DNA of 64,000 nucleotides, taken from assembly GCF_900105685.1 (NCBI RefSeq), contig NZ_LT629781.1, positions 3,522,611-3,586,610 on the forward strand. Reading direction: 5' to 3'. Both the position numbers and the translations under genes were made by a program. The notes under the pieces were generated by a model that was not told the origin of the DNA, searched no databases, and was given only the letters and a program-made list of their open reading frames with translations. The stretch's first letter is position 1, and every line of letters begins with the position of its first letter. Source of the stretch: Verrucomicrobium sp. GAS474. Lineage in GTDB: Bacteria; Verrucomicrobiota; Verrucomicrobiia; Methylacidiphilales; GAS474. Shown one piece after another: positions 3,464-61,396 of this stretch.

Positions 3464-3500
3464 AAAAAAACCGGCTCCCGAAAGGGAGGCCGGTTTTTTT
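3464..3500. terminator. Bidirectional intrinsic terminator between glucosaminidase and murD
   Basis: Seven A's, then stem CCGGCTCCC, loop GAAA and stem GGGAGGCCGG, then seven T's. The A-run and T-run on either side make it work in both directions, which suits the two convergent genes that flank it. Confidence 0.9.
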
Positions 3501-3511
3501 GCGTCTTGGGA

Positions 3512-4834
3512 TTAGGATTGGAGCACCAACCTTCGGAACGCTTCCCCCCGTTCCTCGAAATTCTTGTACTGGTGATAGCTCGACGCCGCCGGGGACAGGA
3601 GGCAGAGGCTCCCCGCCTTCCCCTCCCGCTTCGCCACCGCCACCGCCTCTTCCAGCGTCCCGACCGCGGCGATTTGAAAACGACATTCCCCCGCCCGCAG
3701 CTGGGCCGCCAGGATCGCCCCGGTCTCCGGCATCACGATCAGCCAGCGGAGCCGCGACCGGCGCAGCGCCTCGGTCAATCCCTTGTAGGAAACCCCCCGG
3801 TCCATCCCCCCGGCAATGAGGATATCGGTCTCGGGCAACGCCTCGAGCGCCGCCAGCGTCGCCTCCGGCACGGTCGAGATCGAGTCATTGTAATACCGGA
3901 TTCCCCCCACGATCCCCACCGGCTCCAGCCGGTGCGGCAGGGCCAGGAAGGTGTCGAGGGCCTTCTGCACCGTCGCCGGATCGAGGCCGGGAAGAAGGAG
4001 CTTCGCCGCCATCCAGGCGGCCATCGCATTCAGCCGGTTATGATTGCCTGGCAGCTGGGCGTTCCCGGCCAGCGAGAACGGGAACTCCCTCTCCGCATCG
4101 AACGGGTGGCGGACCACCCCAGGCGGAAGCGCCACCTCGGCCAGGCCCTGCCCCAGACGGGGATCGTCAGCCCGGTAAATCAGGTGGCCCCCCGGCTTCA
4201 GCGCCCGGGCCAGATTCGCCTTCGCGCTCCGGTAGGCCGCGAAGGTACCGTGATAATTGAGATGCTCCTCATAGAGATTGAGCCAGAGGGCGACGTGAGG
4301 GCCGTGCCGGATATTTTCCAGCTGATAGGAGGAGAGCTCCGCCACCGTGATCGAATCGGGCCCCAGCTCCTCGATCAGCTCCCAGAGCGGAATCCCGATA
4401 TTCCCCCCCAGCCGGACGTCGGCCCCGGCGGCGGCCAACAGATGCCGCAGCAGATGGGAGGTCGTGCTCTTCCCCTTCGTCCCCGTCACCCCGGCCACCC
4501 GGCCCGGCGCGAAGCGGAGGAAAAGATCGGCCTGCCCCGCGATGCGGTAAGCGGCGTCGGGCGGGAGGCCGAGGCTGGCCGTCGGGATCCCCGGGCTCTT
4601 CAAGACGAGATCGAACGCGGTCAACCGCCCCGGCACCGCCTCCTGGGAAAGGAACGAAAGGAGCGGATCGGCCTTCAGCTCTTCCTGGATCGGCGCGATC
4701 TTCGCATCGGCGATCGTCAGCCGCTTTCCCGGAAAGTGCTTCCTCAAAAAGCGATAACTCGACCGCCCCTCCCGGCCAAAACCCCAGAGAAGGATCTCCT
4801 TCCCCGCCAAAAAATCGATGAGACCGGAAACCAT
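3512..4834 (-). CDS. murD: UDP-N-acetylmuramoyl-L-alanine--glutamate ligase (MurD; probably MurD2-like)
   Basis: This Mur ligase of 440 residues adds glutamate to UDP-MurNAc-L-Ala in the cytoplasm. Visible are an N-terminal Rossmann domain (LLWGFGREGRSS), the ATP loop GTKGKST at residues 118-124, central SSYQLE and HLNYHG motifs, and the C-terminal LSPAASSYHQYKNFEERG block typical of MurD. It is missing from the dcw cluster at 43.8-61.8 kb and instead follows murL by four bases. In Xanthomonas, MurD2 adds L-Glu and MurL then converts it to D-Glu. The neighbourhood suggests that this ligase likewise prefers L-Glu. That specificity is inference; plain D-Glu MurD activity is the alternative. Confidence 0.93.
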   Translation of the reverse strand: MVSGLIDFLAGKEILLWGFGREGRSSYRFLRKHFPGKRLTIADAKIAPIQEELKADPLLSFLSQEAVPGRLTAFDLVLKSPGIPTASLGLPPDAAYRIAGQADLFLRFAPGRVAGVTGTKGKSTTSHLLRHLLAAAGADVRLGGNIGIPLWELIEELGPDSITVAELSSYQLENIRHGPHVALWLNLYEEHLNYHGTFAAYRSAKANLARALKPGGHLIYRADDPRLGQGLAEVALPPGVVRHPFDAEREFPFSLAGNAQLPGNHNRLNAMAAWMAAKLLLPGLDPATVQKALDTFLALPHRLEPVGIVGGIRYYNDSISTVPEATLAALEALPETDILIAGGMDRGVSYKGLTEALRRSRLRWLIVMPETGAILAAQLRAGECRFQIAAVGTLEEAVAVAKREGKAGSLCLLSPAASSYHQYKNFEERGEAFRRLVLQS

Positions 4835-4838
4835 GATG

Positions 4839-6182
4839 TTACGTCAGGAGGGGAAGAAGATGGGCCGGAACCCCATTTCGGTCATTAAAAAAGCGTAACA
4901 CACCGGCGGCCTCTTCGGCGGAAGGGAGTTTCTCCCCATGGCCGGAAGCAAAATCACGGACCAGCACCGGGGCCTCCCCCTTTTCCAACGCCAACGCCAA
5001 CGCCGCCCGGACCTCCCCCACCTCCCCGACGCACTCGAACGGCTTCGTCGCCGCCACCCCGGTCAATTCGTCGAAAATGGGCTGCAACGAGGCCTCCTCC
5101 AGCGGGGGGAACCCGCCGAAGACCGCGCTCCGTTCCGCCCGCCCCACGAAGGGGGCGAGGAGGATGTCGACAAAGAGGCACTTCGGACACTTCCCGCACC
5201 AGCGATCGTCCCGGCTCCCCACATTGCAGCTGCGGAAGACCCCCAGCGCCCCCGGGATGCGGGCGAAGCGCTCCGCGATCCGCAGCTCGTTCCACGGGCG
5301 CAAGAGGCTGAAATAGGAAATCCCCGGCGCGATCCGGCCCAGCTCGGCGGCGAAGCGGCGCTCGAACTCCCACCCCTTCGAGAACTGGTGATTCACCTCG
5401 GTCCCCGGCACCGTCGGCTCGCTCGCGCTCGACTCGTTCGAGAGCGCGATATAGCGCCTCCCGTGGAGCGCCGCCGTCAGCGCCGTCACGTAGCCGAGCA
5501 TCGCCGAGAACGGCGTATGCCCGTTCAGATAGCCCTGCCGGTTCAGCTCCAGCAGCTCCGGCGCGATCGCCCGCCGCCCCTGGATCACCTGCGCCTCGCC
5601 GTAGCCCATCAGCCGCACGCTCTCCGCCTGCGCCCGCGTCCGCCCGAGGAGGAAACAGCTCACCTCATCGCGATGGCCGCGCAGGAGGTCGAGCGTCACG
5701 AGGGAATCTTTCCCCCCGCCGATCGGGACCAGGATCCCCTTCCCCCCGGAAGCCGGGAGCAACGGCCAATCGGGCGCGGCGGCGTCCTGCTCCAGCGTCA
5801 GGAACGTGTCGATCTCGGCCCCGATCTTGTTCAGATAGAAAAATTCCCCGAGGCCGTGGAACCAGACCCACCGCCACCACGCCGCTTCCTCCGCGCCGAG
5901 CTTCCCCGCCCGCAACACCACGCGGGGCGGGCAGGCCGCCTTCCAATAGCTGATCAGCTCGACGAGCCCGATGCGGAAGACCAAAGCCTTCAGCGCCCCG
6001 GACGGGACGCCCCCTCCCTCCGTCGGCAACGGGATCGAAAGCGCAGGCCGGAACGTCGGCCCCTCCTCCAGCGAGAACTCGAAATGGCAGACCAGATTCC
6101 CCTCCCGCTCCTCGGCGGTGAAGCCCTCGTAGGTCAGCGACGGATGGCGCTCCCGGAGGGCGCGATAACGTTCCTCGCTCAT
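4839..6182 (-). CDS. murL: UDP-N-acetyl-alpha-D-muramoyl-L-alanyl-L-glutamate epimerase (MurL family)
   Basis: MurL is an ATP-dependent epimerase that inverts the terminal L-Glu of UDP-MurNAc-L-Ala-L-Glu to D-Glu, bypassing glutamate racemase. The 447-residue protein carries a PP-loop-like ATP motif, PIGGGKDS (about residues 153-160), then SNESSASEPTVPGTEVNHQF and SKGWEFE, and a Cys-rich CGKCPKCLF stretch. All of these are features I recognise from the MurL family. The ATG at 6182 overlaps the stop of the upstream secreted gene as ATGA, and murD follows after four bases. The contiguous MurL-MurD pair is the strongest evidence for the role. A longer in-frame start is possible but would overlap the upstream gene further. 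Confidence 0.85.
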   Translation of the reverse strand: MSEERYRALRERHPSLTYEGFTAEEREGNLVCHFEFSLEEGPTFRPALSIPLPTEGGGVPSGALKALVFRIGLVELISYWKAACPPRVVLRAGKLGAEEAAWWRWVWFHGLGEFFYLNKIGAEIDTFLTLEQDAAAPDWPLLPASGGKGILVPIGGGKDSLVTLDLLRGHRDEVSCFLLGRTRAQAESVRLMGYGEAQVIQGRRAIAPELLELNRQGYLNGHTPFSAMLGYVTALTAALHGRRYIALSNESSASEPTVPGTEVNHQFSKGWEFERRFAAELGRIAPGISYFSLLRPWNELRIAERFARIPGALGVFRSCNVGSRDDRWCGKCPKCLFVDILLAPFVGRAERSAVFGGFPPLEEASLQPIFDELTGVAATKPFECVGEVGEVRAALALALEKGEAPVLVRDFASGHGEKLPSAEEAAGVLRFFNDRNGVPAHLLPLLT

Positions 6183-6547
6183 CTCGAATGCCACGGCTGC
6201 TTCCGCGTCGCCGGGGAGATCGCCGTCTTCGCGTCCCACGTGCACATCCCGTCGGCCTCATAGATCCCCCGCCCCACCGCCACCACCTTGATGTAGTCGA
6301 AGCGGCGGAACCCGGGCCGGTCGACGAAGACGGCGATCACCCGGTCGAGGTCGGCCGTCGCCGCCTCGGGAGAGTTGCCCCAGCCATTCGGGAGGAAGAG
6401 GAAATCGGGCCGCTGCCCCTTGGGAGGCGTCGGCTCCATGATCCGGGCCTTCGCCAGGGCCGCATCCTCCTCCGCGCGGGCAGGGAGAGCCCCTCCCGCC
6501 GCCAGGAGAAACAACAGAAAGAAAAGGCGAAGCATGGCTTTCTCCAT
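6179..6547 (-). CDS. Small secreted protein of unknown function upstream of murL
   Basis: The 122-residue product starts at ATG 6547, or four codons later. A typical signal peptide, MLRLFFLLFLLAAGG, ends near ALPARA|EE, leaving about 95 mature residues (DFLFLPNGWGN, DRVIAVFVDRPGFRRFDYIKVVAVGRG split across the mature chain). I do not recognise the family. Its stop overlaps the murL start (ATGA), so it is the first gene of a three-gene unit with murL and murD. Export suggests a periplasmic role, possibly linked to the cell wall by context only. Confidence 0.75.
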   Translation of the reverse strand: MEKAMLRLFFLLFLLAAGGALPARAEEDAALAKARIMEPTPPKGQRPDFLFLPNGWGNSPEAATADLDRVIAVFVDRPGFRRFDYIKVVAVGRGIYEADGMCTWDAKTAISPATRKQPWHSR

Positions 6548-6590: not shown

Positions 6591-8465
6591 GTGACGAATT
6601 TCCGCCTCCTGCTCCTCCTGCCGCTCCTCCTCCTCCCCCTCGCCTCCTGCAAAAAGAACGAGGCCGCCACCTCGGCCCAGGCCCCGGCCAAGAAAGCCGT
6701 CCACACCCTCGACGACCTCCCCCGCCACACCTACCCCCTCGACGGCAAGGCCGTCTCCCTCTTCGACTCGGCCCCCAAGGCCAACGCCCTCGCCGACGCC
6801 GTCCAGAAGGACATCGAGGCCGACCTCGCCACCTACGACGTCGAGGACACCACCACCCTGAAGAAACTCAAGGGGACCCTCCTCGCCATCGCCATCCTGA
6901 AGGACGACACCGAGACCGCCCTCCGCCTCATCCGCGAGATCCGCGACCTCGAGACCAAGCCCTCCGCCAAGCTCGTCACCGGCCTCGTCTCCGAGACCCG
7001 CCTCACCGTCGGCCAAGTCTCCTCCTACTCCCAGATGGGGCCGAATTTCTCCCTCTCCGCCGCCTTCCGCGAGGCCCTCGCCGCGAAGGTCGCCGCGATG
7101 CCCTGGAACGTCGTCCAGGCCGAGGTGAAGGACCTCAAGGGAAGCTTCGAGATCCGGAGCGAGAACCTCATCCGGGGCGTCGTCGAGAGCGAGATCGAGC
7201 CCGCCGTCGCGAAGACCCACACCCTCAGCGCCGACACCGCCGCCCGCCTCCTCTCCCTCCGCGCCTTCCTCCTCTACTCCCTCCCGCTGAAGGCCGACGT
7301 CGTCGCCGTCCTCAGCGACGCCGTCGCGAAGCATCAGACGAAGAAGCCCGACATCTGGGCCGCCCGCAACCTCGACCTCTCCCGGGAAAAGAACCTCGTC
7401 CCCGTCCCCGTCGGCATCTGGGACTCCGGCGTCGACCTCCCCCTCTACAAGGGCAACGTCGAGACCGGCGGCGACAACGCGCCCGCCGTCATCGCCTTCG
7501 ACCTCCACTCCAACCTCGTCACCGGCCCCCTCTTCCCCATCGCCCCCGCCGACCAGAAGCGCCTCCCCGAGATGAAGAACCAGATCAAGGGCTTCCTCGA
7601 CCTCCGCGCCGCCGTCGACAGCCCCGAGGCCACCGAGGTGAAGAAAAAGACCTCCTCCATCCCCCAGGACCAGGTGAAGCCCTACCTCGAGGACCTCGAG
7701 CTCTTCGGCAACTACGCCCACGGCACCCACGTCGCCGGGATCGCCGTCGCCGGGAACCCCGCCGCCCGCCTCGTCGTGGGCCGCATCACCTTCGACTACC
7801 ACATGATCCCCGAGGTCCCCACCGTCGAGCAGGCCGTGAAGGACGTCGAATCGTACAAGCAGACCGTCGCCTTCTTCCGCGCCCGGCGCGTCCGCGTCGT
7901 CAACATGAGCTGGGGCGGCGACCTCCGCAGCATCGAGGACGCCCTGGAGGCGAACGGCGTCGGCAAGGACGCCGCCGACCGCGCCAAGACCGCCCGGAAA
8001 ATCTTCGACATCGGCCGGGACGGCCTCCTCGACGCCCTCCGCAGCGCCCCCGACATCCTCTTCGTCACCGCCGCCGGGAACTCCGACAACGACGTCGCCT
8101 TCGACGAAGTCATCCCCTCCTCCTTCATCCTGCCGAACCTCATCACCGTCGGCGCCGTCGACCAGGCGGGCGACGAGACCTCCTTCACCAGCTTCGGCAA
8201 GAACGTCTCCGTCTACGCCGACGGCTTCGAGGTGAAGAGCAAGATCCCCGGCGGCACCGTCATGCCCTTCTCCGGCACCTCCATGGCCTCCCCCAATGTC
8301 GCCAACCTGGCGGCGAAACTCTTCGCCCTCGATCCCGCCCTCAGCCCCCTCGACGCCGCCGCCCTGATCCGGGACGGGGCCGATCCCTCCCCCTCCGATT
8401 CCCGCATCCTCCTCATGAACCCGGCCCGATCTTTTGCATTGCTCAAGGCCCGGCATCAAAAATAG
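6591..8465 (+). CDS. Subtilisin-like serine protease, lipoprotein (peptidase S8)
   Basis: The gene starts at GTG 6591 and encodes 624 residues. An N-terminal lipoprotein signal ends in the lipobox LASC (Cys20), so the protein is exported and lipid-anchored. After a helical region of about 250 residues that I do not recognise, the S8 catalytic triad is complete: Asp278 in GIWDSGVD, His377 in HGTHVAGI and Ser564 in SGTSMASP, with AAGN supplying the oxyanion Asn. The wide spacing between Asp and His (about 100 residues) means there is an insertion in the catalytic domain. It is followed after one base by the amidase gene, so both may be coexpressed as envelope enzymes. Confidence 0.92.
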   Translation: MTNFRLLLLLPLLLLPLASCKKNEAATSAQAPAKKAVHTLDDLPRHTYPLDGKAVSLFDSAPKANALADAVQKDIEADLATYDVEDTTTLKKLKGTLLAIAILKDDTETALRLIREIRDLETKPSAKLVTGLVSETRLTVGQVSSYSQMGPNFSLSAAFREALAAKVAAMPWNVVQAEVKDLKGSFEIRSENLIRGVVESEIEPAVAKTHTLSADTAARLLSLRAFLLYSLPLKADVVAVLSDAVAKHQTKKPDIWAARNLDLSREKNLVPVPVGIWDSGVDLPLYKGNVETGGDNAPAVIAFDLHSNLVTGPLFPIAPADQKRLPEMKNQIKGFLDLRAAVDSPEATEVKKKTSSIPQDQVKPYLEDLELFGNYAHGTHVAGIAVAGNPAARLVVGRITFDYHMIPEVPTVEQAVKDVESYKQTVAFFRARRVRVVNMSWGGDLRSIEDALEANGVGKDAADRAKTARKIFDIGRDGLLDALRSAPDILFVTAAGNSDNDVAFDEVIPSSFILPNLITVGAVDQAGDETSFTSFGKNVSVYADGFEVKSKIPGGTVMPFSGTSMASPNVANLAAKLFALDPALSPLDAAALIRDGADPSPSDSRILLMNPARSFALLKARHQK

Positions 8466-45284: not shown

Positions 45285-46511
45285 TTAGAAAGAGAAGAGC
45301 CGCATCGCGGCGAAGAACTTGCGCAGGCTGCCGAAGGCCCCCTCGGGCACCTCGTTGGCATCCTCGATCTGGGCGTAGCGGAGCATCCCCATCACCGTGG
45401 CTAGCTCGGGCCGGGTGACGTGGCTCTGGTCACCCTCGACGGGCCGGGGCTCGGCCATCGCGACGGGAACGGGGAAAATCTCCGAGGCCAGCTCGAGGAA
45501 TCCGGGAACCCGCGAAGCGCCGCCCGTGAAGTAAACCGTGCCGCGGAAGTGATGCCAGAACGGCTGTTCCGAGAGCTTCCCAAGGACGATGCGGAGCGTC
45601 TCGTCTTGCCGGGCGTTGAGGATCGTGAGGACGTGATCCATCCGGACGAGGCGTTCCTCGAAGCTGTAGTCGCCGGGAATCACGACGGCGGCGGGGATCT
45701 CGTGGTCGATATCGACCCGGCCGTGCCGGACCTTCAGGTCTTCGGCCTTGAGCGGCGGGAGCTTCAGGCCGAGGGCGAGGTCGTTCGTCAGGTGCTCGCC
45801 GCCGACGGCGATCACCCCCGTATCGACCACCGCGCCCGCGTCGTAGGCCAGCCAGTCGGTCGCGCCCGCGCCGCAGTTCACGACGATCGAGCCCTCCCGC
45901 TTCTGCGCCTCGCTCAGCACCGCCTGCGCCGTCGCGAGGCTGCCGAGGGCGTACCCCTTCACGTTCACGCCCAGTTCCTTCACGCACCGGATGGTGGTCT
46001 GGAGGCGCGTCGTGATGCCGGAGACGAGGTGATATTCCGCCGAGAGGCGGCGCGAGGAGAGGCCGACCGGATTCTCGACCGTCGAGCCGTCGTCGAGGCG
46101 GTAGTGGCGGATCACCTCGTGGATGAAGGAATAGCCCGGCTCCAGCGACTGGTGGCGGATCATCCCGTCGAGGTCGTCGAGGTGCTCGGGAAGGATCTCG
46201 TTCCCCTCGCTGTGGATCGCCGTCGTCAGCTCGACGTTCTCGGAATGGATGTGGGCGCCGGAGAGGGCGAGGTAGACCTCGGAGATCTCGACCCCGGTCT
46301 TTTCCTCCGCGTCCTTCAGGGCGTGGGAGATGCTCTGCTTCGCGTACTCGAAGTTCACGATCTCGCACTTGCGGACACCGCTCGTCTTCGCCTCGCCGAC
46401 GCCGAGGAGGACGAGGGAGCCGTCGCCGCGCTGCTCGGCGACCGCCACGGCCACCTTGCTGCTGCCCACTTCCATCGCCACGAGGATGTTCGGATAATTC
46501 CTGAAGAACAT
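45285..46511 (-). CDS. ftsA: Cell-division protein FtsA
   Basis: FtsA is an actin-like ATPase that tethers FtsZ to the membrane. The 408-residue product starts NILVAMEVGSSKVAVAVAEQ (phosphate 1), has IVVNCGAGATDWLAY (phosphate 2) and YFTGGASRVPGFLELA (adenosine). The 1C domain insertion (EVYLALSGAHIHS) is also present. It ends ALGSLRKFFAAMRLFSF-like: a hydrophobic, basic amphipathic helix (SLRKFFAAMRLFSF) for membrane binding. ftsZ follows after 42 bases. Confidence 0.95.
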   Translation of the reverse strand: MFFRNYPNILVAMEVGSSKVAVAVAEQRGDGSLVLLGVGEAKTSGVRKCEIVNFEYAKQSISHALKDAEEKTGVEISEVYLALSGAHIHSENVELTTAIHSEGNEILPEHLDDLDGMIRHQSLEPGYSFIHEVIRHYRLDDGSTVENPVGLSSRRLSAEYHLVSGITTRLQTTIRCVKELGVNVKGYALGSLATAQAVLSEAQKREGSIVVNCGAGATDWLAYDAGAVVDTGVIAVGGEHLTNDLALGLKLPPLKAEDLKVRHGRVDIDHEIPAAVVIPGDYSFEERLVRMDHVLTILNARQDETLRIVLGKLSEQPFWHHFRGTVYFTGGASRVPGFLELASEIFPVPVAMAEPRPVEGDQSHVTRPELATVMGMLRYAQIEDANEVPEGAFGSLRKFFAAMRLFSF

Positions 46512-46550
46512 GTCTTTGCCCCTTTTTTCTGTTTTTTTAAAAACGAATGA

Positions 46551-47393
46551 TTATTTAAAGCGAACCGGCACGTTGCGTTCCGGGGTCAGGTCGACGCTCG
46601 CGATCTGCTGTCCCTGGCTCTCGGCGTAATCGATGATCTCCTCCAGCCGCCCCAGCTGCTGAGGCAGGTAGCGGAGCTGGAAGAGGACCGAGGCCCCGTC
46701 CCGCGTCTCGATCCCGATCGCGAGCGGATGGGAGACGTCGAGGCGGGCGATGTCGAGGCGGGCACGGACCGGCGTCAGCTCCATGCACTTCAGCAGCTGG
46801 ACGGCGGCGAGGACCTCGGGCTGGTCGAGGTGCTGCCCGGGCTCGACCCCGGTGAAGCGGGTGCCGACGATCTCGGGGAGGTTCGTCCGCAGCGGCTCGT
46901 TCGCCATCGGCTTGATCGTGACGCCGTCGCGGTCGACGTAGAGGGGAAGCTTCAGCTCGTCGGCGATCCGCGCGATCGGCATCCGTTCCGAGACGGTGAT
47001 GATGATCTTGTCGGGCAACTCCCGGCGGACCTGCGCGCTGGCGACGTAGGGGAGCTTCTCGACGTTGCGCTCGACCTCGGCGAGGTCGACGGTCATCACG
47101 TTCCGGCCCGTGAAGAGGCGGCTCGCCGCGATGACCTGCTTCCTCTGGAGGCCGCCCTTCACGTCCACGACAATCGTCTTCAGGGCGTAACGGGGATTTT
47201 CGTAGAAGGCCTGGTTGAGGAGGAAGCCCGCCGCGTAATGGGTCGCGATGCCGACGAGGGTCAGGGAGAGGCAGACCGCCCCGCAGAGGAGGGTCCGCTT
47301 CGTCCAGAGACGGCGCTGATGGCGAACCCCGGTCGTCGTCGCGAAGAGGACGTTCGCCTGGGCCTTCTTCATCCGGTTGCGTCGGAGGGCCAT
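46551..47393 (-). CDS. ftsQ: Cell-division protein FtsQ
   Basis: FtsQ links early and late divisome proteins in the inner membrane. From ATG 47393 it has 280 residues: a basic cytoplasmic tail, one membrane helix (LLCGAVCLSLTLVGIATHYA), and a POTRA domain (YALKTIVVDVKGGLQRKQVI). The FtsQ domain has AEVERNVEKLPYVASAQVRR and PDKIIITVSERMPIARI. It starts one base after the ddl stop and precedes ftsA, the usual order. Confidence 0.92.
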   Translation of the reverse strand: MALRRNRMKKAQANVLFATTTGVRHQRRLWTKRTLLCGAVCLSLTLVGIATHYAAGFLLNQAFYENPRYALKTIVVDVKGGLQRKQVIAASRLFTGRNVMTVDLAEVERNVEKLPYVASAQVRRELPDKIIITVSERMPIARIADELKLPLYVDRDGVTIKPMANEPLRTNLPEIVGTRFTGVEPGQHLDQPEVLAAVQLLKCMELTPVRARLDIARLDVSHPLAIGIETRDGASVLFQLRYLPQQLGRLEEIIDYAESQGQQIASVDLTPERNVPVRFK

Positions 47394-47394
47394 A

Positions 47395-48342
47395 CTAGAG
47401 GGTCTCCTTTCCTTTGCCGTCCTGGGCATGGGCGGCAGCGGCGGCCGAAAGCTCGAGGATCCGGCCGCAGAGGCCGGGGAAGTCGATCCCCGCGGCGGCG
47501 GCAGCCTTCGGCAGGAGGCTGGTCGCCGTCATCCCGGGAATCGTGTTCACCTCGAGGACGAAGGGCCGCCCCTTCTCGTCGAGCATCACGTCGACGCGGG
47601 AATAGACCTGGCAGCAGAGGACGCGGTGGGCGAGGAGCGCCGCCCGCTGGATGCGGAGCGTCGTCTCCTCGTCGATCCGGGCCGGACAGTAATAATCGGT
47701 CGCCCCGGCGGTGTACTTGTTGTCGTAATCGTAGAAGCCGCTCTTCGGGACGATCTCGACGGGCGGGAGCGCCTCCTTGCCGAGGATGCCGACGGTGAAT
47801 TCCCGCCCCTTGATGAACTGCTCCACCAGGACGTGCTCGTCGAACTCCCACGCTTTCCTCAGGGCGGGTTCCAGGTCTTTCTCCTCGAAGACGAAGCTCA
47901 TCCCGACCGTCGAGCCCTGCTTCGAGGGCTTCACGACGACGGGCATCTCCATCGGCTCCGGCAGGCTCCCGCCGCGCAACACGCAATGGCCCGCGGGGGT
48001 CGGGATCCCGGCGGCGCGGAAGAGCTCCTTGCTCGCCTCCTTGTCGAAAGCGAGGCGGCTCGCCGCGACGCCGCACCCGGTGTAGGGGACCCCCCGCGCC
48101 TCGAGCATCGCCTGGACCGTCCCGTCCTCGCCGAAGGTGCCGTGGAGCGAAAGAAAGACGAAATCGATCCCCTCGGGAAGGACCACCTCGCGCGCCGTCA
48201 CGTCGACCTCGACGACGTCGTAGCCGAGCGTGCGGAGCGCCCCCGCGACGGCGGCCCCGGTGCGCAGCGAAACCTCGCGCTCGCTCGACGGACCGCCCAT
48301 GAGGACGGCGACGCGGCGGATGGAAGAAAAGGTCGCGCTCAC
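47395..48342 (-). CDS. ddl: D-alanine--D-alanine ligase
   Basis: Ddl makes the D-Ala-D-Ala dipeptide used by MurF. From GTG 48342 it has 315 residues: N-terminal VAVLMGGPSSEREVSL, FLSLHGTFGEDGTVQAML, the ATP-grasp VVVKPSKQGSTVGMSFV and the metal/active-site block PFVLEVNTIPGMTATSL. The GTG overlaps the murC-murB stop (GTGA). Confidence 0.95.
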   Translation of the reverse strand: MSATFSSIRRVAVLMGGPSSEREVSLRTGAAVAGALRTLGYDVVEVDVTAREVVLPEGIDFVFLSLHGTFGEDGTVQAMLEARGVPYTGCGVAASRLAFDKEASKELFRAAGIPTPAGHCVLRGGSLPEPMEMPVVVKPSKQGSTVGMSFVFEEKDLEPALRKAWEFDEHVLVEQFIKGREFTVGILGKEALPPVEIVPKSGFYDYDNKYTAGATDYYCPARIDEETTLRIQRAALLAHRVLCCQVYSRVDVMLDEKGRPFVLEVNTIPGMTATSLLPKAAAAAGIDFPGLCGRILELSAAAAAHAQDGKGKETL

Positions 48343-50639
48343 AGTTCGTCTCCGATGATGATCACCTCGGGATCGAGGTCGATGCCGTGCCGGTCCTTGA
48401 TGCGCTGTTGGATCGTCTTCATGAGGGTCTGCACTTCTTCGGCGGTGGCGCCCCCATCATTCACGATAAAATTCCCATGTACATCCGAAACTCGCGCTTT
48501 GCCGAAAGAAAGATTCTTCAGCCCCGTGTCGTCGATCAGTTTCCCCGCGGGGGCCGGCCCGGGATTCTTGAAGATGCAGCCGGCGCTCGGCGCGGCGGGC
48601 TGGCTCGTCCACCGCTTCTTGCTGTAGCCCTTGAGTTCCTCCTCGATCTGCTCCACGGGGAGCGGCTTCGTCCGGATCACCGCCTCGATCGCGATCTCGT
48701 CGCGGAGGACGGGGACGTTCCGGTAGTAAACCTCAAGCTGGTCGCGCTGGTAGGTGCGGACGTTGCCGTCGCGGTCGACGGTCTTCACCTGCTCGATCAC
48801 TTCCATCGTCCAGCCCTGCATCGCCCCGGCGTTCATCCGGAGCGCGCCGCCGAGGTTTCCGGGAATCCCCTCCATGAACGAAATCCCGCCCAGGCCCTTT
48901 TTCTTCGCCGCCGCCACGATGGCGCGGAGGATCGCCCCCGCCCCGGCGGTGATCCTTTCCCCGTCGAACTCGACCTTGGAAAAGGCCGGAGTCCCGAGAT
49001 AGATCGAGAGGCCCCGGATGCCGCCGTCGCGGACCAGGAGATTCGTCCCCCGCCCGATGAAGGTGACGGGAACGCTGTGCCGCTTCGCATAGCGGAGGCC
49101 GACGGCGAGGTCGTCGAGCGAGGCGGGCTCGAACCAGAACTGGGCCGGGCCGCCGATGCGGATCGAGGTGTGCTTCCGCATCGGTTCCTGCCGGAGGAGC
49201 GCGCTTTCGGGGGAAAGCGTCTTCTTGAGCCCCTCGTACCAGGCCAGCTCGGAGGCGAGCGTCGAGGCGGCCTCGTGGATGTTTCCGGCTCCCATCGTGA
49301 TGACGAGGTCGCCCGGCTCGATCTCCCGCGCCACGATCTTGCGAAGCTTGCGCAGGTCGGCCTCGTATTGGACCTTCGGATGGCCCCCCGCCTCGACGGC
49401 GGCGGCGAAAGCCTCGCCGGTAACCCCCTCGATCGGTTCCTCGTTCGCCGCGTAGATGTCGGTCAGGAAGAGGAGGTCGGCGTCGGCGAAGGCGGCGGCG
49501 AACTCGGCCTGGAGGGACTGGGTCCGCGTGTAACGGTGGGGCTGGAAGAGCGCGACGACCCGCTTCCACCCGCCCGACCGCGCGGCGGCGAGCGTCGCCC
49601 GGACCTCGGTGGGGTGGTGGGCGTAGTCGTCGATCACCATGAAATTCTCGCTCTTGTAGCGGACCTCGAAGCGGCGGGTCGCCCCGCGGAATTCGAGGAG
49701 CGCGGCGGCGGCGGCCTCGAAGGGGACGCCGAGTTCCATCGCCATCGCGATCACGCCGAGGGCGTTGCGGACATTCTGGAAACCGGGCACCTCGAGGACG
49801 ACCCGCCCGAGGCGGATCCCGTCGCGGAGCACCTCGAATTCGGAGACGAAGTTCCGCGCCGTGATGTTCACCGCCCGGTAGGCCGCCGTCTCCCCGATCC
49901 CGTAGCTGATGACCTCCTTCCGGTTCGAGCAGAGGAGGGCCGTGTTCTCGTCGTCGGCGCAATAGACCACCTTGCCCTTCGTCTGGTCGAGGAACTGGGA
50001 GAAGGCCTTCAGGATCGCCTTGAGGTCGCCGTAATGATCGAGGTGCTCCTCCTCGATGTTGAGGAGGATCGCATGGGCGGGCCGGAAGGCGACCAGCGTC
50101 CCGTCGCTCTCGTCGCCCTCGATCACGAGGGGGGAACCCTCCTCCCCGTCCCAGCCGGCGCTCGCGCCGAGGATCGGGACTTCGGCCCCGACGTAATGGC
50201 TGGGGCGGAGCCCCGCCCCGCGCAGGACGTGGGCGAGCATCGAGCTCGTCGTCGTCTTGCCGTGCATCCCGGCGACGACGATCGACTGCCGCCGCTCCGC
50301 GAGGACAGCAAGGACCTCGGCCCGGCGGACGGAGGGAACGCCGAGGCGCTGGGCCTCTAGCCGCTCGGGATTCCCCTCCCCGATCGCCGAGGAATAGACG
50401 ACCAGATCGCTCTCCAGCACGACAGTCCCGACGTGCTTCGGATAAAAGACAAGCCCCTCCCCGACGAGCTTCTCGACCGGGACCGAGGCGTGGAGATCGG
50501 AACCCGAGACCCGGTAGCCGGCCCCGATGAGGAGGCGCGCGAGGGCGCTCATCCCGGTCCCGCCGACCCCGACCAGATGGATGCGGGCCCCCTCGGACTT
50601 CAGGACTTCGACAATTTTGGCTCTTACTTCTTCGCGCAT
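48339..50639 (-). CDS. murC-murB: Fused UDP-MurNAc--L-Ala ligase / UDP-GlcNAc-enolpyruvate reductase (MurC-MurB)
   Basis: One 766-residue chain joins two consecutive-pathway enzymes. MurC occupies about residues 1-460: HLVGVGGTGMSALARLL, ATP loop VAGMHGKTTTSSML, HLDHYGDL and DDYAHHPTEVRATL. MurB occupies about 475-766: RIGGPAQFWFEP, the FAD site GRGTNLLVRDGG, MEGIPGNLGGALRMNAGA, SAGCIFKNP with the proton-donor position occupied by Cys, and the final LDPEVIIIG. MurB makes UDP-MurNAc, to which MurC adds L-Ala, so the fusion couples the two steps. It overlaps murG by 16 bases upstream and ddl downstream. Confidence 0.95.
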   Translation of the reverse strand: MREEVRAKIVEVLKSEGARIHLVGVGGTGMSALARLLIGAGYRVSGSDLHASVPVEKLVGEGLVFYPKHVGTVVLESDLVVYSSAIGEGNPERLEAQRLGVPSVRRAEVLAVLAERRQSIVVAGMHGKTTTSSMLAHVLRGAGLRPSHYVGAEVPILGASAGWDGEEGSPLVIEGDESDGTLVAFRPAHAILLNIEEEHLDHYGDLKAILKAFSQFLDQTKGKVVYCADDENTALLCSNRKEVISYGIGETAAYRAVNITARNFVSEFEVLRDGIRLGRVVLEVPGFQNVRNALGVIAMAMELGVPFEAAAAALLEFRGATRRFEVRYKSENFMVIDDYAHHPTEVRATLAAARSGGWKRVVALFQPHRYTRTQSLQAEFAAAFADADLLFLTDIYAANEEPIEGVTGEAFAAAVEAGGHPKVQYEADLRKLRKIVAREIEPGDLVITMGAGNIHEAASTLASELAWYEGLKKTLSPESALLRQEPMRKHTSIRIGGPAQFWFEPASLDDLAVGLRYAKRHSVPVTFIGRGTNLLVRDGGIRGLSIYLGTPAFSKVEFDGERITAGAGAILRAIVAAAKKKGLGGISFMEGIPGNLGGALRMNAGAMQGWTMEVIEQVKTVDRDGNVRTYQRDQLEVYYRNVPVLRDEIAIEAVIRTKPLPVEQIEEELKGYSKKRWTSQPAAPSAGCIFKNPGPAPAGKLIDDTGLKNLSFGKARVSDVHGNFIVNDGGATAEEVQTLMKTIQQRIKDRHGIDLDPEVIIIGDEL

Positions 50640-51745
50640 GATTCAACCTCGTTGGCCACCCTCGCCGCCGCATCGGGCACCGCCAGCCCCGCGGCGGCGC
50701 TCTTCATCGCCTCCAACACGGTTCCACCCGAACCGGAAAGCAGGTTCCGTACCGATTCGGCCAGTTCCCCGATCTTCAGCGCCGATTGCGGGCGGAGTTC
50801 CGCCGCCCCGGCGGCTTCGTAGATGCGGGCGTTCGCCGTCTGGTGGTCGTCGGCGGCGGCGGGAAAGGGAATGAGGATCGAGGGCAGGGCGTAGTGGCTC
50901 AGCTCGGTGAGGCTCGACGCCCCGGAGCGGGCGATCGCGAGGTCGGCCAGGCTGTAGGCCGCCGCCATGTCGGCCCCGGCCGCGAAGGCACGGACGACGG
51001 CCTTCGCCCCGGCGGCGCGATAGGCCTCCGCCGTCGCCGCCTCGTCCGAGGCCCCGGTCAAATGAATGAACTGCCACCCCGCGAGCGCCCCCTTCCACGC
51101 GGGAAGGGCAAGGGCCGAGACGAGGAGCCGGTTGATCCCCTGCGCCCCCTGGCTCCCTCCGATGGCGAGGATCGTCTTGATGGCGGGATCGGGATCGAGG
51201 CCGAGGAGCTTCGCCGCCTCGTCGCGGGAGATTCGGGAGAGTTCCGTGCGGACCGGCGTCCCCGTCACCTCGCAGCGGGCCGAGGGAAGGAAGGCCGCGC
51301 AGGCGCCGAAGCCGAGGAGGGTCCGATCGGCCCAGGCGGCCATCAGCCGCGTCACCCGTCCGGGGACGGCGTTCGATTCGTGGATCAGCGCGGGGATATT
51401 CTGGCGCTTCGCCTCCCAGACCGGGACGGCGCTGGTGAAACCGCCCATCCCGAGGACGACGTCGGGTTCGACCTCGGAGAAGAGCGTCCGGCAAAGGCCG
51501 CGCGCCTCCCACAGTTGCGCGGCGAAACGGAAGATCTTCGGCGAAAGGAGGCCGGGCCACCCGATCGCGGGAAGGGCGCGGGAGGGAAGATGATCGCGGC
51601 CCGCGAGGGCCGTCCGGTCGATCTCCTTCTTCGAGACCAGGAGGAACGGCTCATGCCCGCGACGGCGCAGCTCCTCCGCGACGGCCACCCCCGGAAAGAG
51701 ATGCCCGCCCGTCCCGCCGCACGCGATGAGAACCTTGAGCGCCAT
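50624..51745 (-). CDS. murG: UDP-GlcNAc:lipid I GlcNAc transferase
   Basis: MurG makes lipid II at the cytoplasmic face of the inner membrane. The 373-residue GT-B enzyme begins LIACGGTGGHLFPGVAVAEE, has VLGMGGFTSAVPVWEA, the acceptor-side IHESNAVPGRVTR, the hinge LAIGGSQGAQGIN and the UDP-GlcNAc site ARSGASSLTELSHYALPSI. It lies six bases after ftsW and overlaps murC-murB by 16 bases. Confidence 0.96.
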   Translation of the reverse strand: MALKVLIACGGTGGHLFPGVAVAEELRRRGHEPFLLVSKKEIDRTALAGRDHLPSRALPAIGWPGLLSPKIFRFAAQLWEARGLCRTLFSEVEPDVVLGMGGFTSAVPVWEAKRQNIPALIHESNAVPGRVTRLMAAWADRTLLGFGACAAFLPSARCEVTGTPVRTELSRISRDEAAKLLGLDPDPAIKTILAIGGSQGAQGINRLLVSALALPAWKGALAGWQFIHLTGASDEAATAEAYRAAGAKAVVRAFAAGADMAAAYSLADLAIARSGASSLTELSHYALPSILIPFPAAADDHQTANARIYEAAGAAELRPQSALKIGELAESVRNLLSGSGGTVLEAMKSAAAGLAVPDAAARVANEVESCAKK

Positions 51746-51750
51746 ATGAA

Positions 51751-52923
51751 TTAGATACGAATCGGGCCGCCTTTTTTGCGGCCCGGCAGGACTGTACCCT
51801 GGGGTTCTTCCGGATGTACAGCCTGACGATGCAAATTGAATAAAATTCCGATGCTGACGAGCGAGAGCAGCAGGTTCGAGCCGCCGTAGCTGATGAACGG
51901 AAGGGGGAAACCCTTGTTGGGAAGAAGCGAGGTGACGACGCCGAGGTTGATCATCGCCTGGAGGCCCATCATCGTCGTGATCCCGGTGCCGAGGAAGAGG
52001 CCGCTCGGATCGGGCGCGTGGATCGAGATCCACCCGCTGCAGAGGAAGAGGACGAGGAAGGCCATCACGATGCCGAGGCAGATCCAGAGGCCCAACTCCT
52101 CCCCGACGATGGGGAAGATGAAATCGGTCGGCGCCTCGGGGAGGTAATACATCTTCTGGCGGCTGTTCCCGAGGCCGAGGCCGTCGGTGCCGCCCGAGCC
52201 GAGGGCGATCAGCGCCTGGAAGTTCTGGTACCCCTTGCCCGCCTTCGATTCCTCGGGATGGAGGAAGGCGAAGAGCCGCGCCCGGCGTTCCGGGATCAGC
52301 CAGGCCACGGTCAGGAGGCCGGAGAGGGCGAGGACGGGGATCGGGAGGAGATAACGCTTCGGAGCCCCGGCGACGAAGAGCATCACCGAGAGAACCGCGA
52401 AAAGGAGGGCCGATGTCCCGATGTCCTTCGAGACAATCAGGATGCAGACCGAGAAGAAGACGACGGCGACGGGGACGCCCATCCCCTTCCATGAATTGAG
52501 GCGGCGCTGGTATTTGGCGAACCACCAGGCCAGGAAAACAATGACGGCGAGCTTGACGAATTCCGAGGGCTGGAAGGTCATTCCGGCGACCTCGATCCAG
52601 CGCCACGAACCCTTCACCTTCTTCCCGACGTGCGGCACGAAGACGAGAAGAAGGAGAAAGATCGAGCTGGCCCAAACCCAGAGCCCCTTGGAGACATACC
52701 GGTGATAGTCGATCCGGGAGACGACGGCGCACGCCGCCCCCCCGATCACGACCCACACCATCTGCTTCCGCAGGGCGCCGTAGATCGCGCCCGTCCCCTC
52801 GGCCGCCTGCTTGCCGCTGATGCTGAAAAGCATCACGACGCCCAGGGCAATGAGGCTCAGCACCACGACGAGCAGGAGGTAGCCTGCCTGCCGGTGGAAA
52901 AAGGCGGTGCTGGAGCGGTTCAT
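51751..52923 (-). CDS. ftsW: Peptidoglycan glycosyltransferase FtsW (SEDS family)
   Basis: The 390-residue SEDS polymerase has about ten membrane helices. Family motifs are WRWIEVAGMTFQPSEFVKL, KDIGTSALLFAVLSVMLF, YQNFQALIALGSGGTDGLGL, LPEAPTDFIFPIVGEELGL with the catalytic-type Asp, and FPLPFISYGGSNLLLSLVSI. In the dcw context it is FtsW rather than RodA, paired with FtsI in septal synthesis. Confidence 0.95.
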   Translation of the reverse strand: MNRSSTAFFHRQAGYLLLVVVLSLIALGVVMLFSISGKQAAEGTGAIYGALRKQMVWVVIGGAACAVVSRIDYHRYVSKGLWVWASSIFLLLLVFVPHVGKKVKGSWRWIEVAGMTFQPSEFVKLAVIVFLAWWFAKYQRRLNSWKGMGVPVAVVFFSVCILIVSKDIGTSALLFAVLSVMLFVAGAPKRYLLPIPVLALSGLLTVAWLIPERRARLFAFLHPEESKAGKGYQNFQALIALGSGGTDGLGLGNSRQKMYYLPEAPTDFIFPIVGEELGLWICLGIVMAFLVLFLCSGWISIHAPDPSGLFLGTGITTMMGLQAMINLGVVTSLLPNKGFPLPFISYGGSNLLLSLVSIGILFNLHRQAVHPEEPQGTVLPGRKKGGPIRI

Positions 52924-52982
52924 TTTTTGGCGGTGGGGACGGGAGCGATCGTTCGACTACAAAACAACGCGGAGCGCGTCCC

Positions 52983-54008
52983 TTACTTGTTCATCACCAG
53001 GTCGGGCGACGAGGTGCGGAGCGTCGGCACGGCGGAGGCCGGGGCCTGGCCCTGGCTCACCTCGTGGCGGTCGCCCTTCACCGGGATCGTCAGGATCTCG
53101 CCGATCTTGAGCTTCTTCGGGTCGCTCAGCTTCGGGGAGTTCGCCGCCATGATCGCGGCGGGAGTCACCTTGAACTGCTTGGCGATCTTCGTGAGGGTGT
53201 CACCCTTCGCGACCGTATAGCTGTGGTTCTCGACCGAGGCGGCGGCCGCAACGGCGGGGGCGGCGGGAGCGGAGACCGTCGCGACGGCGGCGGGCTGGGC
53301 CGAGGCGGGGGCGGAAGCCGCGACGGCAGCGGGGGCGGCAGCCTTGCCCGTCACGGAGAGCTTCTGGCCGATCTTGAGCATGTCGCCGGTCAGGTGATTC
53401 ATCTCCTTGAGCTGGGCGACGCTCATCCCGTTCTGCTTCGCCACGCGATGGAGCGTGTCGCCAGCCTTCACCACGTAGACCTTCGCGCTCGCGTCGGCCA
53501 CCGGCTGGGCGGGAGCGGCAGGCTTGGGCACGGCGGCGGCGGGCGTCGCCGGAGCCGTCGCGGGCTTGGCGGAGGCGATCACCGGCTTGGCCGCATTGGC
53601 CGGAGTCGCGGGGATCGAGGCCGGAGTCGTCGCGGTCGTGTTGCCGACCTCGCTTCCTTCGGTCGGAATCGCGGCGTCCTTGGAGGCCGTCCCGTCGGTC
53701 GAGGCCGTGGCGTCGGTCCCTTCGGCCGGCGTCGCGGGCGTGGCGTTGGCCATCTCGGCGCTCTTCGCCGTCTCGTCGGTGGCCGCCTCGCTCGGACCCT
53801 TGATGAAGTGCCAGGCGCTGATCCCGCCGATGACGACGAGGTGGAGGGCGAGGACGACGATGAAGACCGTCATCAGCTTGAGGCCGCCCGTCTGCCCGTC
53901 GGCGGAGCCTTCGGTGTCGGCCAGGCCGTTATGGGAGCCGTGGCCGCCTTCGGTGTTGAAGCGGAAGCGGCTGATGCGGGCCGCCATGCCTTGGAGGGGA
54001 TTTTTCAT
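52983..54008 (-). CDS. Membrane-anchored protein with two LysM domains, in the dcw cluster
   Basis: The 341-residue product has a cytoplasmic tail, one membrane helix (about residues 45-67) and a long Ala/Thr/Pro-rich linker. Two LysM domains follow: about 173-216 (YVVKAGDTLHRVAKQNGMSV) and about 262-308 (YTVAKGDTLTKIAKQFKVTP). LysM binds the glycan chains of peptidoglycan. There is no catalytic domain. It sits between mraY and ftsW, which suggests a divisome or septal wall role; this position is unusual for a LysM protein. The family is not otherwise recognised. Confidence 0.85.
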   Translation of the reverse strand: MKNPLQGMAARISRFRFNTEGGHGSHNGLADTEGSADGQTGGLKLMTVFIVVLALHLVVIGGISAWHFIKGPSEAATDETAKSAEMANATPATPAEGTDATASTDGTASKDAAIPTEGSEVGNTTATTPASIPATPANAAKPVIASAKPATAPATPAAAVPKPAAPAQPVADASAKVYVVKAGDTLHRVAKQNGMSVAQLKEMNHLTGDMLKIGQKLSVTGKAAAPAAVAASAPASAQPAAVATVSAPAAPAVAAAASVENHSYTVAKGDTLTKIAKQFKVTPAAIMAANSPKLSDPKKLKIGEILTIPVKGDRHEVSQGQAPASAVPTLRTSSPDLVMNK

Positions 54009-54070
54009 GGTGTCGTTTTCCTTTCGTGGTTTGTGCTGCGTTGTGTTGTTGTTTTGGTTTGGGACTGAAA

Positions 54071-55171
54071 TCAGCGGAGCTTGAGGGTGGCCAGCGCCAT
54101 GAGGGCGCAGAGGAGGCTCATGATCCAGAAGCGGATCGTGACCTGGGATTCGGCCCAGCCCTTGAGCTCGAAGTGGTGATGGATCGGGGCCATCGCGAAG
54201 ACCCGTTTCCCCGTCATCTTGAAGGAAAAAACCTGGATGATGACCGAGAGCGCCTCGATGACGAAGATCCCGCCCGCCAGGACGAGGAGCAGTTCCTGCC
54301 CGATGCAGATCGCGACGACGCCGAGCGCGCCGCCGATGGCGAGGGAGCCGGTGTCCCCCATGAAGACGCGGGCCGGGTGGCAGTTATACCAGAGGAAGCC
54401 GAGCGTCGCGCCGAGGAGCGCACCGCAGAAGATCGCGAGCTCCCCCGCGTGCGGCACGTGGGGGATGAAGAGGTAGGAAGCGATCTTCGCGTTCCCCACC
54501 ACATAGGCGAAGACCGCGTAGACGAAGGCGACCGTGATCGTGCACCCCCCGGCGAGGCCGTCGAGGCCGTCGGTGAGGTTCACCGCGTTCGACGCGCCGG
54601 TGATGACGAGGACGAAGAAGAGAAGCGCCCACCAGCCGAGGTCGACCGAGGTGGTGCGGAGGAAGGGAACGGCGAGCGACTCCGCCCCGTGCCGGTAGAC
54701 CGGATCGGCGAGGAGGATGCCGCCGACGGCGAGCCCCGTCGCGACCTGCGCGACGAGCTTCAACCGCCCCGGAAGCCCCGCCGACTTCTTCTTGCTGACC
54801 TTGATGTAATCGTCGAGGAAGCCGATCGCGCCGAGGAAGAGCATCGCGCCGAGGGTGATCCAGACGAGCTTCGCCTCCTCCAGGCGGACCCAGAGCAGGC
54901 AGCTCACCGTCACCGCCAGGAGGATCAGCACGCCGCCCATCGTCGGCGTCCCCTTCTTGCCGCTGTGGAGCTCGGCGAGCTTGTGGACCTCGTCCTTCTG
55001 GCGGAGCGGCTGCCCCATCTTCAGGCGGCGGAGGATCTCGATCAGCCAGGGACCGAAGAGCCAGCAGAGGACCAGCGCCGTCAACGTCGCGCCGACGATG
55101 CGGAACGTGATGTAGTGAAAGACATTGAACCCCTCGAAGGTCCGGTGGAGGAAGTGGAGATAATAGAGCAT
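54071..55171 (-). CDS. mraY: Phospho-MurNAc-pentapeptide transferase
   Basis: MraY links UDP-MurNAc-pentapeptide to undecaprenyl phosphate, giving lipid I. The 366-residue protein has about ten membrane helices, KKGTPTMGGVLILLAV near the N-terminus, FLDDYIKVSKKKSAGLPGRLKL, NAVNLTDGLDGLAGG with catalytic Asp residues, and APIHHHFELKGWAE near the C-terminus. It starts four bases after murF. Confidence 0.97.
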   Translation of the reverse strand: MLYYLHFLHRTFEGFNVFHYITFRIVGATLTALVLCWLFGPWLIEILRRLKMGQPLRQKDEVHKLAELHSGKKGTPTMGGVLILLAVTVSCLLWVRLEEAKLVWITLGAMLFLGAIGFLDDYIKVSKKKSAGLPGRLKLVAQVATGLAVGGILLADPVYRHGAESLAVPFLRTTSVDLGWWALLFFVLVITGASNAVNLTDGLDGLAGGCTITVAFVYAVFAYVVGNAKIASYLFIPHVPHAGELAIFCGALLGATLGFLWYNCHPARVFMGDTGSLAIGGALGVVAICIGQELLLVLAGGIFVIEALSVIIQVFSFKMTGKRVFAMAPIHHHFELKGWAESQVTIRFWIMSLLCALMALATLKLR

Positions 55172-55175
55172 GACG

Positions 55176-56585
55176 TTAGGGAGTGGAGGGGGGGGCGAAA
55201 GCCGATTGGAGCGTTCCGACGAGGCCTTCGAGCTTCAGGAAACGGGAACCCTTCACGAGCAGCGTGTCGTCGGAACGAAGGAGCGGCGGCACCGCGAGGG
55301 AGGCGGCGGCGGTGTCCCCGCCGAGCACGATCGCCGCCTCGGGGAACCCGGCCTCCCGCGCGCCCGCGCCGAGGTCGGCCGCATGGGGCCCGACGAAGAC
55401 GAGGAGCGCGGCGTCCGAAGCCGTCGCCGCGATCCGGCCCGTCTCCCGATGGAACGCCGGGGCCATCTCCCCCAATTCCCCCATCGAGCCGATCACCGCG
55501 ACCCGCCGGGCGGGAGCGGGGAAATCGCGGAGCGCGGCGAGGGCCGCCGCCGTCGATTCGGGATTCGCGTTGTAGCAGTCGTTGATCAGCCAGCCCTTGC
55601 CGAGGGGGGAGACTTCCATCCGCTTCCCGGAAAGCCTCACGCCGGATAGCCCTGCCGCGATCTCGGCGAGGGAGAGCCCCGCCAATCCGCCGACGGCGGC
55701 GGCGAGGAGCGCGTTGGAAACCATGACGCGGTTGAAGAGCGGCAGCGCCACCGCCGCACGCTCGCCGCTTTCCGTCCGGATCAGGTCGAAGGAAATGCCC
55801 TGCGTCGTCGTCGCCACGTTCTCGGCCCGCCAGGCGGCGTCGGCACCCTCGCCGACCCAGAGGGTCTTCCCCGCGACGCGGCCCGCGCGGGCGCGGAGCA
55901 GGGCGTCGCCGCCCGAGAGGACCGCCGCCCCGGAGGCGGCGAGCGCGGCCAGGAGATCGGTCTTCTCGTCGGCGATCGCCTCGCGGCTGCCGAGATGCTC
56001 GATGTGGGCCGAGCCGATGTTCGAGATCACCCCGATGTCGGGCGCGGCGAAGGAGGCGAGCGAGGCGATCTCCCCGCGATGGTTCATCCCCATCTCGACG
56101 ACGGCATACTCGGTATCGCCCGCGATGCGGAGGAGCGTGAGCGGGACGCCGATGTGATTGTTCAGGTTCCCCTCGGTGGCGACGGTGCGGAAGCGGGTGC
56201 CGAGGACGGCGGCGATCATCTCCTTCGTGCTCGTCTTGCCGCTGCTCCCCGTGACCCCGACGACGCGGACGGGATGGCTCCGCCGATAGGCCGAGGCGAC
56301 CCGCTGGAGCGCCGCCAGGGTGTCCGGCACCATCACGAGGCCGAAGCCCGCGGGCAACGGGCCTTCCGGCCGCCGCGACACCAAGGCGGCGACCGCGCCC
56401 GCTTCGGCGGCCCGTCCGACGAATTCATGCCCGTCGAACCGGTCCCCGACAAGGGAGACGAAGGCATCGCCGGGGGCGACCGTCCGGGTATCGGTGTGGA
56501 GGCGGGTGACGACCGTCCCAGGCGCGCCCGCCTGGAGCGTCCCTTCGGCCATCTTCGCGATCTCGTCGAGGCGGAGCGGTTCCAT
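55176..56585 (-). CDS. murF: UDP-MurNAc-tripeptide--D-Ala-D-Ala ligase
   Basis: MurF completes the cytoplasmic UDP-MurNAc-pentapeptide. The 469-residue Mur ligase has the ATP loop VTGSSGKTSTKEM, NNHIGVPLTLL, VEMGMNHRGEIA, NIGSAHIEHLGSREAIA, and INDCYNANPESTAAAL. The start shares one base with the murE stop (TGATG). Confidence 0.96.
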   Translation of the reverse strand: MEPLRLDEIAKMAEGTLQAGAPGTVVTRLHTDTRTVAPGDAFVSLVGDRFDGHEFVGRAAEAGAVAALVSRRPEGPLPAGFGLVMVPDTLAALQRVASAYRRSHPVRVVGVTGSSGKTSTKEMIAAVLGTRFRTVATEGNLNNHIGVPLTLLRIAGDTEYAVVEMGMNHRGEIASLASFAAPDIGVISNIGSAHIEHLGSREAIADEKTDLLAALAASGAAVLSGGDALLRARAGRVAGKTLWVGEGADAAWRAENVATTTQGISFDLIRTESGERAAVALPLFNRVMVSNALLAAAVGGLAGLSLAEIAAGLSGVRLSGKRMEVSPLGKGWLINDCYNANPESTAAALAALRDFPAPARRVAVIGSMGELGEMAPAFHRETGRIAATASDAALLVFVGPHAADLGAGAREAGFPEAAIVLGGDTAAASLAVPPLLRSDDTLLVKGSRFLKLEGLVGTLQSAFAPPSTP

Positions 56586-60368: not shown

Positions 60369-60376
60369 AAAAACGG

Positions 60377-61318: not shown

Positions 61319-61396
61319 ATCGGGAACAGTAGAAACAGCGGAAAACATCATGGGAGCGGTGTCGTGACTCAAACCTTGGAATCAAGATCGTCTCGA

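Follow-up and report, generated by a model that had tools for sequence, protein, structure and literature searches.

A putative MurD2-MurL route to peptidoglycan D-glutamate in Verrucomicrobium sp. GAS474 and its order

The murL-murD pair and its specificity residues

MurI, an enzyme of the essential synthesis of D-glutamate (D-Glu), is a drug target. In Xanthomonas, MurI and the canonical MurD are replaced by MurD2 and MurL; both reactions were shown for Xanthomonas and, with the Micromonospora and Salinispora orthologues, in vitro as well (PMC8788868, PMC5808125). The published range of the system comprises some Gamma- and Alphaproteobacteria and rare actinobacteria (PMC8788868), and low-similarity orthologues were noted in a fungus, cyanobacteria, and an amoeba (PMC5808125). 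We analyzed a window of 64,000 nucleotides, positions 3522611 to 3586610 of the one-contig genome of Verrucomicrobium sp. GAS474 (3.76 Mb, 99.9% complete), which carries a murL homologue followed by murD. MurD2 and MurL very probably supply the D-Glu of peptidoglycan in GAS474 and its order, replacing MurI and the canonical MurD. This reading is based on the genes present and their linkage, on diagnostic residues and phylogeny, on the mutual exclusion of MurL and MurI, and on a modelled fold. By analogy, we infer that the GAS474 proteins catalyze the same two reactions as the Xanthomonas pair.

The murD gene (3512 to 4834 of the window, minus strand) encodes 440 amino acids and scored 302 bits on TIGR01087 (cut-off, 212), with which Pfam agreed. 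The murL homologue (4839 to 6182, minus strand) matched NF041275 with an E-value of 2.7e-76 over 412 residues (54 to 465), and its stop codon is separated from the ATG of murD by four nucleotides. Thus murD directly follows a murL-type epimerase gene, as the initial annotation had stated. The open reading frame (ORF) listing placed the murL start at GTG 6245. ATG 6182 was judged likelier, because there the start codon overlaps the stop of the preceding gene in the sequence ATGA, and because this start agrees with the N-termini of relatives. The GAS474 proteins are 37% (MurL) and 36% (MurD) identical to the annotated MurL and MurD2 of X. sacchari, where the pair has the same order. Homology to MurL over the whole length, a murD2 neighbour, and a genome lacking MurI identify the upstream protein as MurL in the broad sense.

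No murI was found in the genome by six-frame searches with hidden Markov models, on which this absence rests; the best TIGR00067 score was 27.6-28.7 bits against a cut-off of 146.65, and the sole protein of the Asp/Glu racemase family (PF01177) is of the CuyB type. The same searches found no second murD. Six Mur-ligase-type proteins, which share the Mur ligase middle domain, are encoded, namely MurC/B, MurD, MurE, MurF, Mpl, and FolC, and this typing leaves a single MurD in the genome.

The MurD gene is also the Mur ligase missing from the dcw cluster, as first noticed in the initial annotation. The cluster (45285 to 61372, minus strand) contains rsmH, ftsI, murE, murF, mraY, a LysM gene, ftsW, murG, murC-murB, ddl, ftsQ, and ftsA. 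MurE (about 56585 to 58117), MurF (55176 to 56585), and a MurC-MurB fusion (48339 to 50639), all on the minus strand, are thus present without MurD. The LysM-type gene, recognized by eye between mraY and ftsW (52983 to 54008), sits at the usual murD position of dcw clusters. The order ftsW-murG-murB/C-ddl-ftsQ, described for Verrucomicrobiales and Methylacidiphilales (PMC4803751), is the same in the GAS474 cluster. Relatives that have MurI keep MurD together with the other Mur ligases, as on contig C5 of genome G163.

X. oryzae MurD2 has Glu197 and Arg358 in place of Asp182 and Lys348 of E. coli MurD, and reverting both residues yields a D-Glu ligase (PMC8788868). GAS474 MurD carries Glu190 (codon 4265 to 4267, minus strand) and Arg346 (3797 to 3799, minus strand) at these two positions, as in Xanthomonas MurD2. 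Arg was found at position 348 in all 84 readable sequences of MurL-linked MurDs, with Glu (77) or Asp (7) at position 182. The unlinked MurDs, 26 from Verrucomicrobiota and that of E. coli, had Lys348 with Asp or Asn182 in 27 of 27 cases. In a maximum-likelihood tree of 20 linked and 16 unlinked MurDs, in which the branches of Xanthomonas and of the distant locus L031 are long, the linked MurDs including X. sacchari MurD2 formed one side of a branch with support of 100/99. The L-Glu/epimerase route proposed in the initial annotation is therefore supported by the absence of murI, the single MurD, its Glu and Arg residues, and its place in the MurD2 clade. Many genes annotated as murD ('D-glutamate ligase') probably encode L-glutamate ligases.

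Three other genomes (G293, G294, and G289) encode a MurL-linked MurD2 and a second, unlinked MurD of the canonical type, with no MurI above the cut-off. From their sequences, these cells are predicted to contain two MurDs of opposite stereospecificity.

Modelled fold and proposed mechanism of MurL

MurL was earlier described as having no known domains (PMC8788868, PMC5808125). GAS474 MurL likewise matched no Pfam family at an E-value of 1e-3 and no QueC model of NCBIfam, and a direct search of its sequence against PDB chains gave no genuine match. We built an AlphaFold2 model from six sequences, with a mean predicted local distance difference test score of 86 and a predicted template modelling score of 0.88. 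The best match among solved structures was QatC of the qatABCD defence system (Z 16.6, 4.1 Å over 324 residues), followed by QueC 2pg3 (Z 12.7, 3.7 Å over 199 residues) and the QueC-related Cap9 (Z 12.1). Other PP-loop enzymes, including ThiI, NadE, and TtuA, had Z below 9 and were not used.

Two motifs agree with this fold. The PP-loop motif GGGKDS (residues 155-160; 5703 to 5720, minus strand) is invariant across 89 MurL homologues. The motif C-x9-C-x2-C-x2-C (residues 319, 329, 332, and 335; 5178 to 5228, minus strand), a QueC-like putative metal site, is retained by nearly all of them. Both motifs were aligned in an hhalign profile comparison with E. coli QueC. In this model MurL is a PP-loop ATPase of the QueC/QatC type, and its Cys4 site probably binds a structural metal, like that of QueC. 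MurL shares the fold and motifs of QueC yet falls outside the Pfam QueC family, and it goes unmentioned in two recent articles on QueC proteins. A MurL tree, in which three outgroup rows are long, did not resolve the place of GAS474's order (72/60), and we claim no direction of transfer.

Carboxylates are activated by PP-loop enzymes through adenylation, with release of pyrophosphate. In the proposed route, MurD2 would first attach L-Glu, which MurL would then invert. Adenosine triphosphate (ATP) would be bound at the QueC/QatC-type PP-loop of MurL, and the alpha-carboxylate of the attached L-Glu would be adenylated. Adenylation would acidify the alpha-hydrogen, so that the centre could be deprotonated and then reprotonated from the opposite face. 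Hydrolysis of the acyl-adenylate would make the step irreversible. The strongly conserved N264-H265-Q266, K269, E250, and the NGH motif at residues 220-222 are candidates for the acid/base residues. Adenylation of the alpha-carboxylate was already proposed for X. oryzae MurL, which uses one ATP, forms adenosine monophosphate (AMP), and works only in the L to D direction (PMC8788868). The PP-loop fold supports this earlier proposal and fits the unidirectional conversion of ATP to AMP. It also suggests where the MurL active site lies, which simple mutations could test.

Distribution of MurL and other possible sources of D-Glu

Among 288 Verrucomicrobiota genomes, nine encode MurL, and 85 encode MurI above the cut-off. 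The nine are all seven sampled members of GAS474's order, genome G213 of another family, and genome G120, which has a divergent partial match; none of them has MurI above the cut-off. Six of the seven order members carry genes for methane/ammonia monooxygenase subunit A, in keeping with Methylacidiphilales; the GAS474 genome lacks them.

We scanned 84,980 species genomes with a verrucomicrobial MurL alignment and obtained at least 588 relatives. The best 80 of these included 53 from Bacteroidota, 25 from Bacillota, and one from Chlorobiota. MurD lay directly downstream of MurL in 77 of these 80 loci, with a median overlap of 4 nucleotides, and the other three were single-ORF fusions. MurI above the cut-off was found in none of the 50 MurL genomes tested. 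In 247 genomes of one Bacteroidales-type order, 80 had only MurL, 155 had only MurI, none had both, and 12 had neither. The initial annotation had extended the route to a distant phylum. The pair is indeed fixed in GAS474's order, but this understated the range, since the pair is also common in Bacteroidota and Bacillota. We found no report of MurL or MurD2 in Bacteroidota, Bacillota, or Verrucomicrobiota in the openly accessible literature, which did not cover the original 2017 and 2019 papers. The pathway itself is known; the unexpected points are its frequency in Bacteroidales and Clostridia, the strict exclusion of MurI, and the apparent QueC-like fold of MurL.

The fused loci (L046, L077, and L084) encode MurL-MurD proteins of about 870-950 amino acids, and with genomes G409, G491, and G564 such fusions are spread across Chlorobiota, Roseburia, and Bacteroidales-type genomes. 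In the latter three genomes, MurL lies in single open frames of 885-921 amino acids, and fusion is deduced only from the length of the frame. MurL homologues annotated as hypothetical are found on Pseudonocardia plasmids (L150:4962-6371 and two more); L150, the one examined, has no MurD neighbour. The divergent MurL-like protein of G120 (L032), near a contig end, has the PP-loop and the cysteines and no MurD neighbour, and a canonical MurD is encoded elsewhere in that genome. The X. sacchari record NZ_CP010410.1 (L149; 508 kb), labelled a plasmid, carries murL, murD2, and aspartate kinase/diaminopimelate (DAP) decarboxylase and so probably belongs to the chromosome or represents a chromid.

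Several points weigh against the MurD2-MurL route. GAS474 MurL scored 257 bits on NF041275 (MurL_Xanthomonadales), against a curated cut-off of 700, and so falls outside that subfamily; homologues from Pseudonocardia, Bacteroidales, and Lachnospiraceae likewise reached only 260-300 bits. Asp182 is retained in seven of the 84 linked MurDs, and Arg348 by itself is also seen in MurDs that use D-Glu, for instance that of S. mutans (PMC8788868). The MurL of G213 (L031:1451-2872), which adjoins MurD, has its four cysteines replaced, mostly by serine, and the Cys4 metal site is therefore not universal. The exclusion of MurL and MurI in the 247 genomes gave a Fisher's p of about 2e-52, a value inflated by the relatedness of these genomes, and the zero overlap weighs more. 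In addition, the IlvE-like aminotransferase (206 bits on the D-amino-acid transaminase model) and the cysteate-racemase-like enzyme of GAS474 may produce some free D-Glu.

Three other explanations were weighed. In the first, a promiscuous DapF would make free D-Glu, GAS474 MurD would be an ordinary D-Glu ligase, and MurL would have another role. DapF with glutamate racemase activity was shown in Chlamydia trachomatis and proposed for MurI-less genera of the Planctomycetes-Verrucomicrobia-Chlamydiae (PVC) group (PMC5885031). Moreover, most of the 288 Verrucomicrobiota have neither MurI nor MurL, so the phylum must have another source; about 190 genomes that are at least 90% complete, the listed members of genus f4:g6 (2.3-3.2 Mb) among them, lack both MurL and a MurI above the cut-off. 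DapF may well serve these bacteria. However, it leaves unexplained why a MurL operon with an enzyme of the MurD2 clade bearing L-Glu-specificity residues occurs in exactly this MurI-less order, as well as the exclusion of MurL and MurI in Bacteroidales. We regard this explanation as very unlikely for GAS474. Our search of the genome covered MurI, a second MurD, and D-amino-acid transaminase.

It is similarly improbable that a cysteate-racemase-like protein or an IlvE-like aminotransferase supplies D-Glu while the MurL-MurD pair is redundant or bifunctional, although both proteins are encoded. The PF01177 protein (genome positions 818576 to 819226) passed the CuyB cysteate racemase model (233 bits; cut-off, 190) and failed the glutamate racemase model TIGR00067 (28.7 against 147), and was thus rejected as murI. 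The genome has two class-IV aminotransferases, one IlvE-like and one PabC-like, and neither reached the cut-off for D-amino-acid transaminase. The IlvE-like protein, at 206 bits on TIGR01121 (cut-off, 277), passed the branched-chain cut-offs and was rejected as a D-amino-acid transaminase. A role of MurL on another glutamyl substrate, such as a secondary polymer, with an incidental link to MurD, is barely credible: MurL-like proteins without a MurD neighbour do exist (the Pseudonocardia plasmid and G120) and QueC-fold proteins have varied substrates (PMC13279940, PMC13329287), but murL of GAS474 adjoins the sole murD of a genome that lacks murI, and 77 of 80 loci from three phyla show the same MurL-MurD arrangement, with fusions in addition.

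Surroundings of the pair and comparison with known systems

The putative operon is headed by an ORF of 122 amino acids (6179 to 6547, minus strand) with a signal-peptide-like N-terminus, as judged by eye. Its stop codon overlaps the murL start as ATGA, an arrangement that points to translational coupling. This ORF matched no family in Pfam or NCBIfam, and no homologue was found within about 6 kb of the murL-murD pair in six genomes of the same order. The initial annotation described a coupled secreted gene leading the operon; its first position and the ATGA overlap hold for GAS474, but the gene does not accompany the pair in these relatives. It is therefore probably incidental and outside the D-Glu route. 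A terminator-like hairpin followed by a T run lies directly 3' of murD2 (3475 to 3488, minus strand, also reading on the plus strand). Four such hairpins were observed against 3.4 expected in shuffled sequences, so that its support is weak. A promoter scan found nothing.

A divergent gene for a subtilisin-like (S8) protease (6591 to 8465, plus strand) begins 43 bp from the first ORF of the operon. In the methanotroph-like family of the order, a sugar-nucleotidyltransferase gene with weak similarity to MurU lies upstream of murL (L026:7199-7942, with equivalents in L025 and L030). Further upstream in these three loci are genes that by eye resemble phosphotransferase system (PTS) enzyme I and HPr kinase.

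Taken broadly, MurL-MurD2 appears rather likely to be one of two main bacterial routes to D-Glu, mutually exclusive with MurI (fixed in one Verrucomicrobiota order and in roughly one in three Bacteroidales-type species, and present in many Clostridia), with MurL a PP-loop enzyme of the QueC fold, inverting an amino acid via an acyl-adenylate. MurD2 and MurL have been promoted as a narrow-spectrum target because the route was believed to be confined to a small number of genera, often pathogens (PMC8788868). We predict that inhibitors of MurD2/MurL would act on many gut Bacteroidales and Lachnospiraceae as well, and that these MurL-bearing bacteria would escape MurI inhibitors. One order of the PVC group also gains a concrete route where promiscuous DapF was proposed for MurI-less genera (PMC5885031).

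The closest described systems are X. oryzae MurD2 (XOO_1320) and MurL (XOO_1319) and their orthologues in Micromonospora and Salinispora, with which GAS474 shares the pair, the absence of MurI, and the Glu and Arg specificity residues (PMC8788868, PMC5808125). The annotated X. sacchari locus also has murL and then murD, at about 36-37% identity in both proteins. The Xanthomonas pair is nevertheless distant: GAS474 groups in a subgroup with Bacteroidota and Bacillota, and its MurD has Ser rather than Pro at position 414 and Tyr rather than Phe at 416. GAS474 differs from the canonical MurI and MurD route of E. coli and Verrucomicrobium spinosum in lacking MurI and in having a MurD of another clade outside dcw. 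The bifunctional DapF of Chlamydia is likewise a means of living without MurI in the PVC group (PMC5885031), but it makes free D-Glu and needs neither MurL nor MurD2. MurL resembles QueC (7-cyano-7-deazaguanine synthase) and QatC in its PP-loop ATPase fold, GGxDS-type loop, and Cys4 motif, whereas its identity to them is 12-16% over the structural match and its substrate is different. QueC lacks the extra N-terminal region of about 145 residues found in MurL, and QatC aligns from residue 12 of the model.

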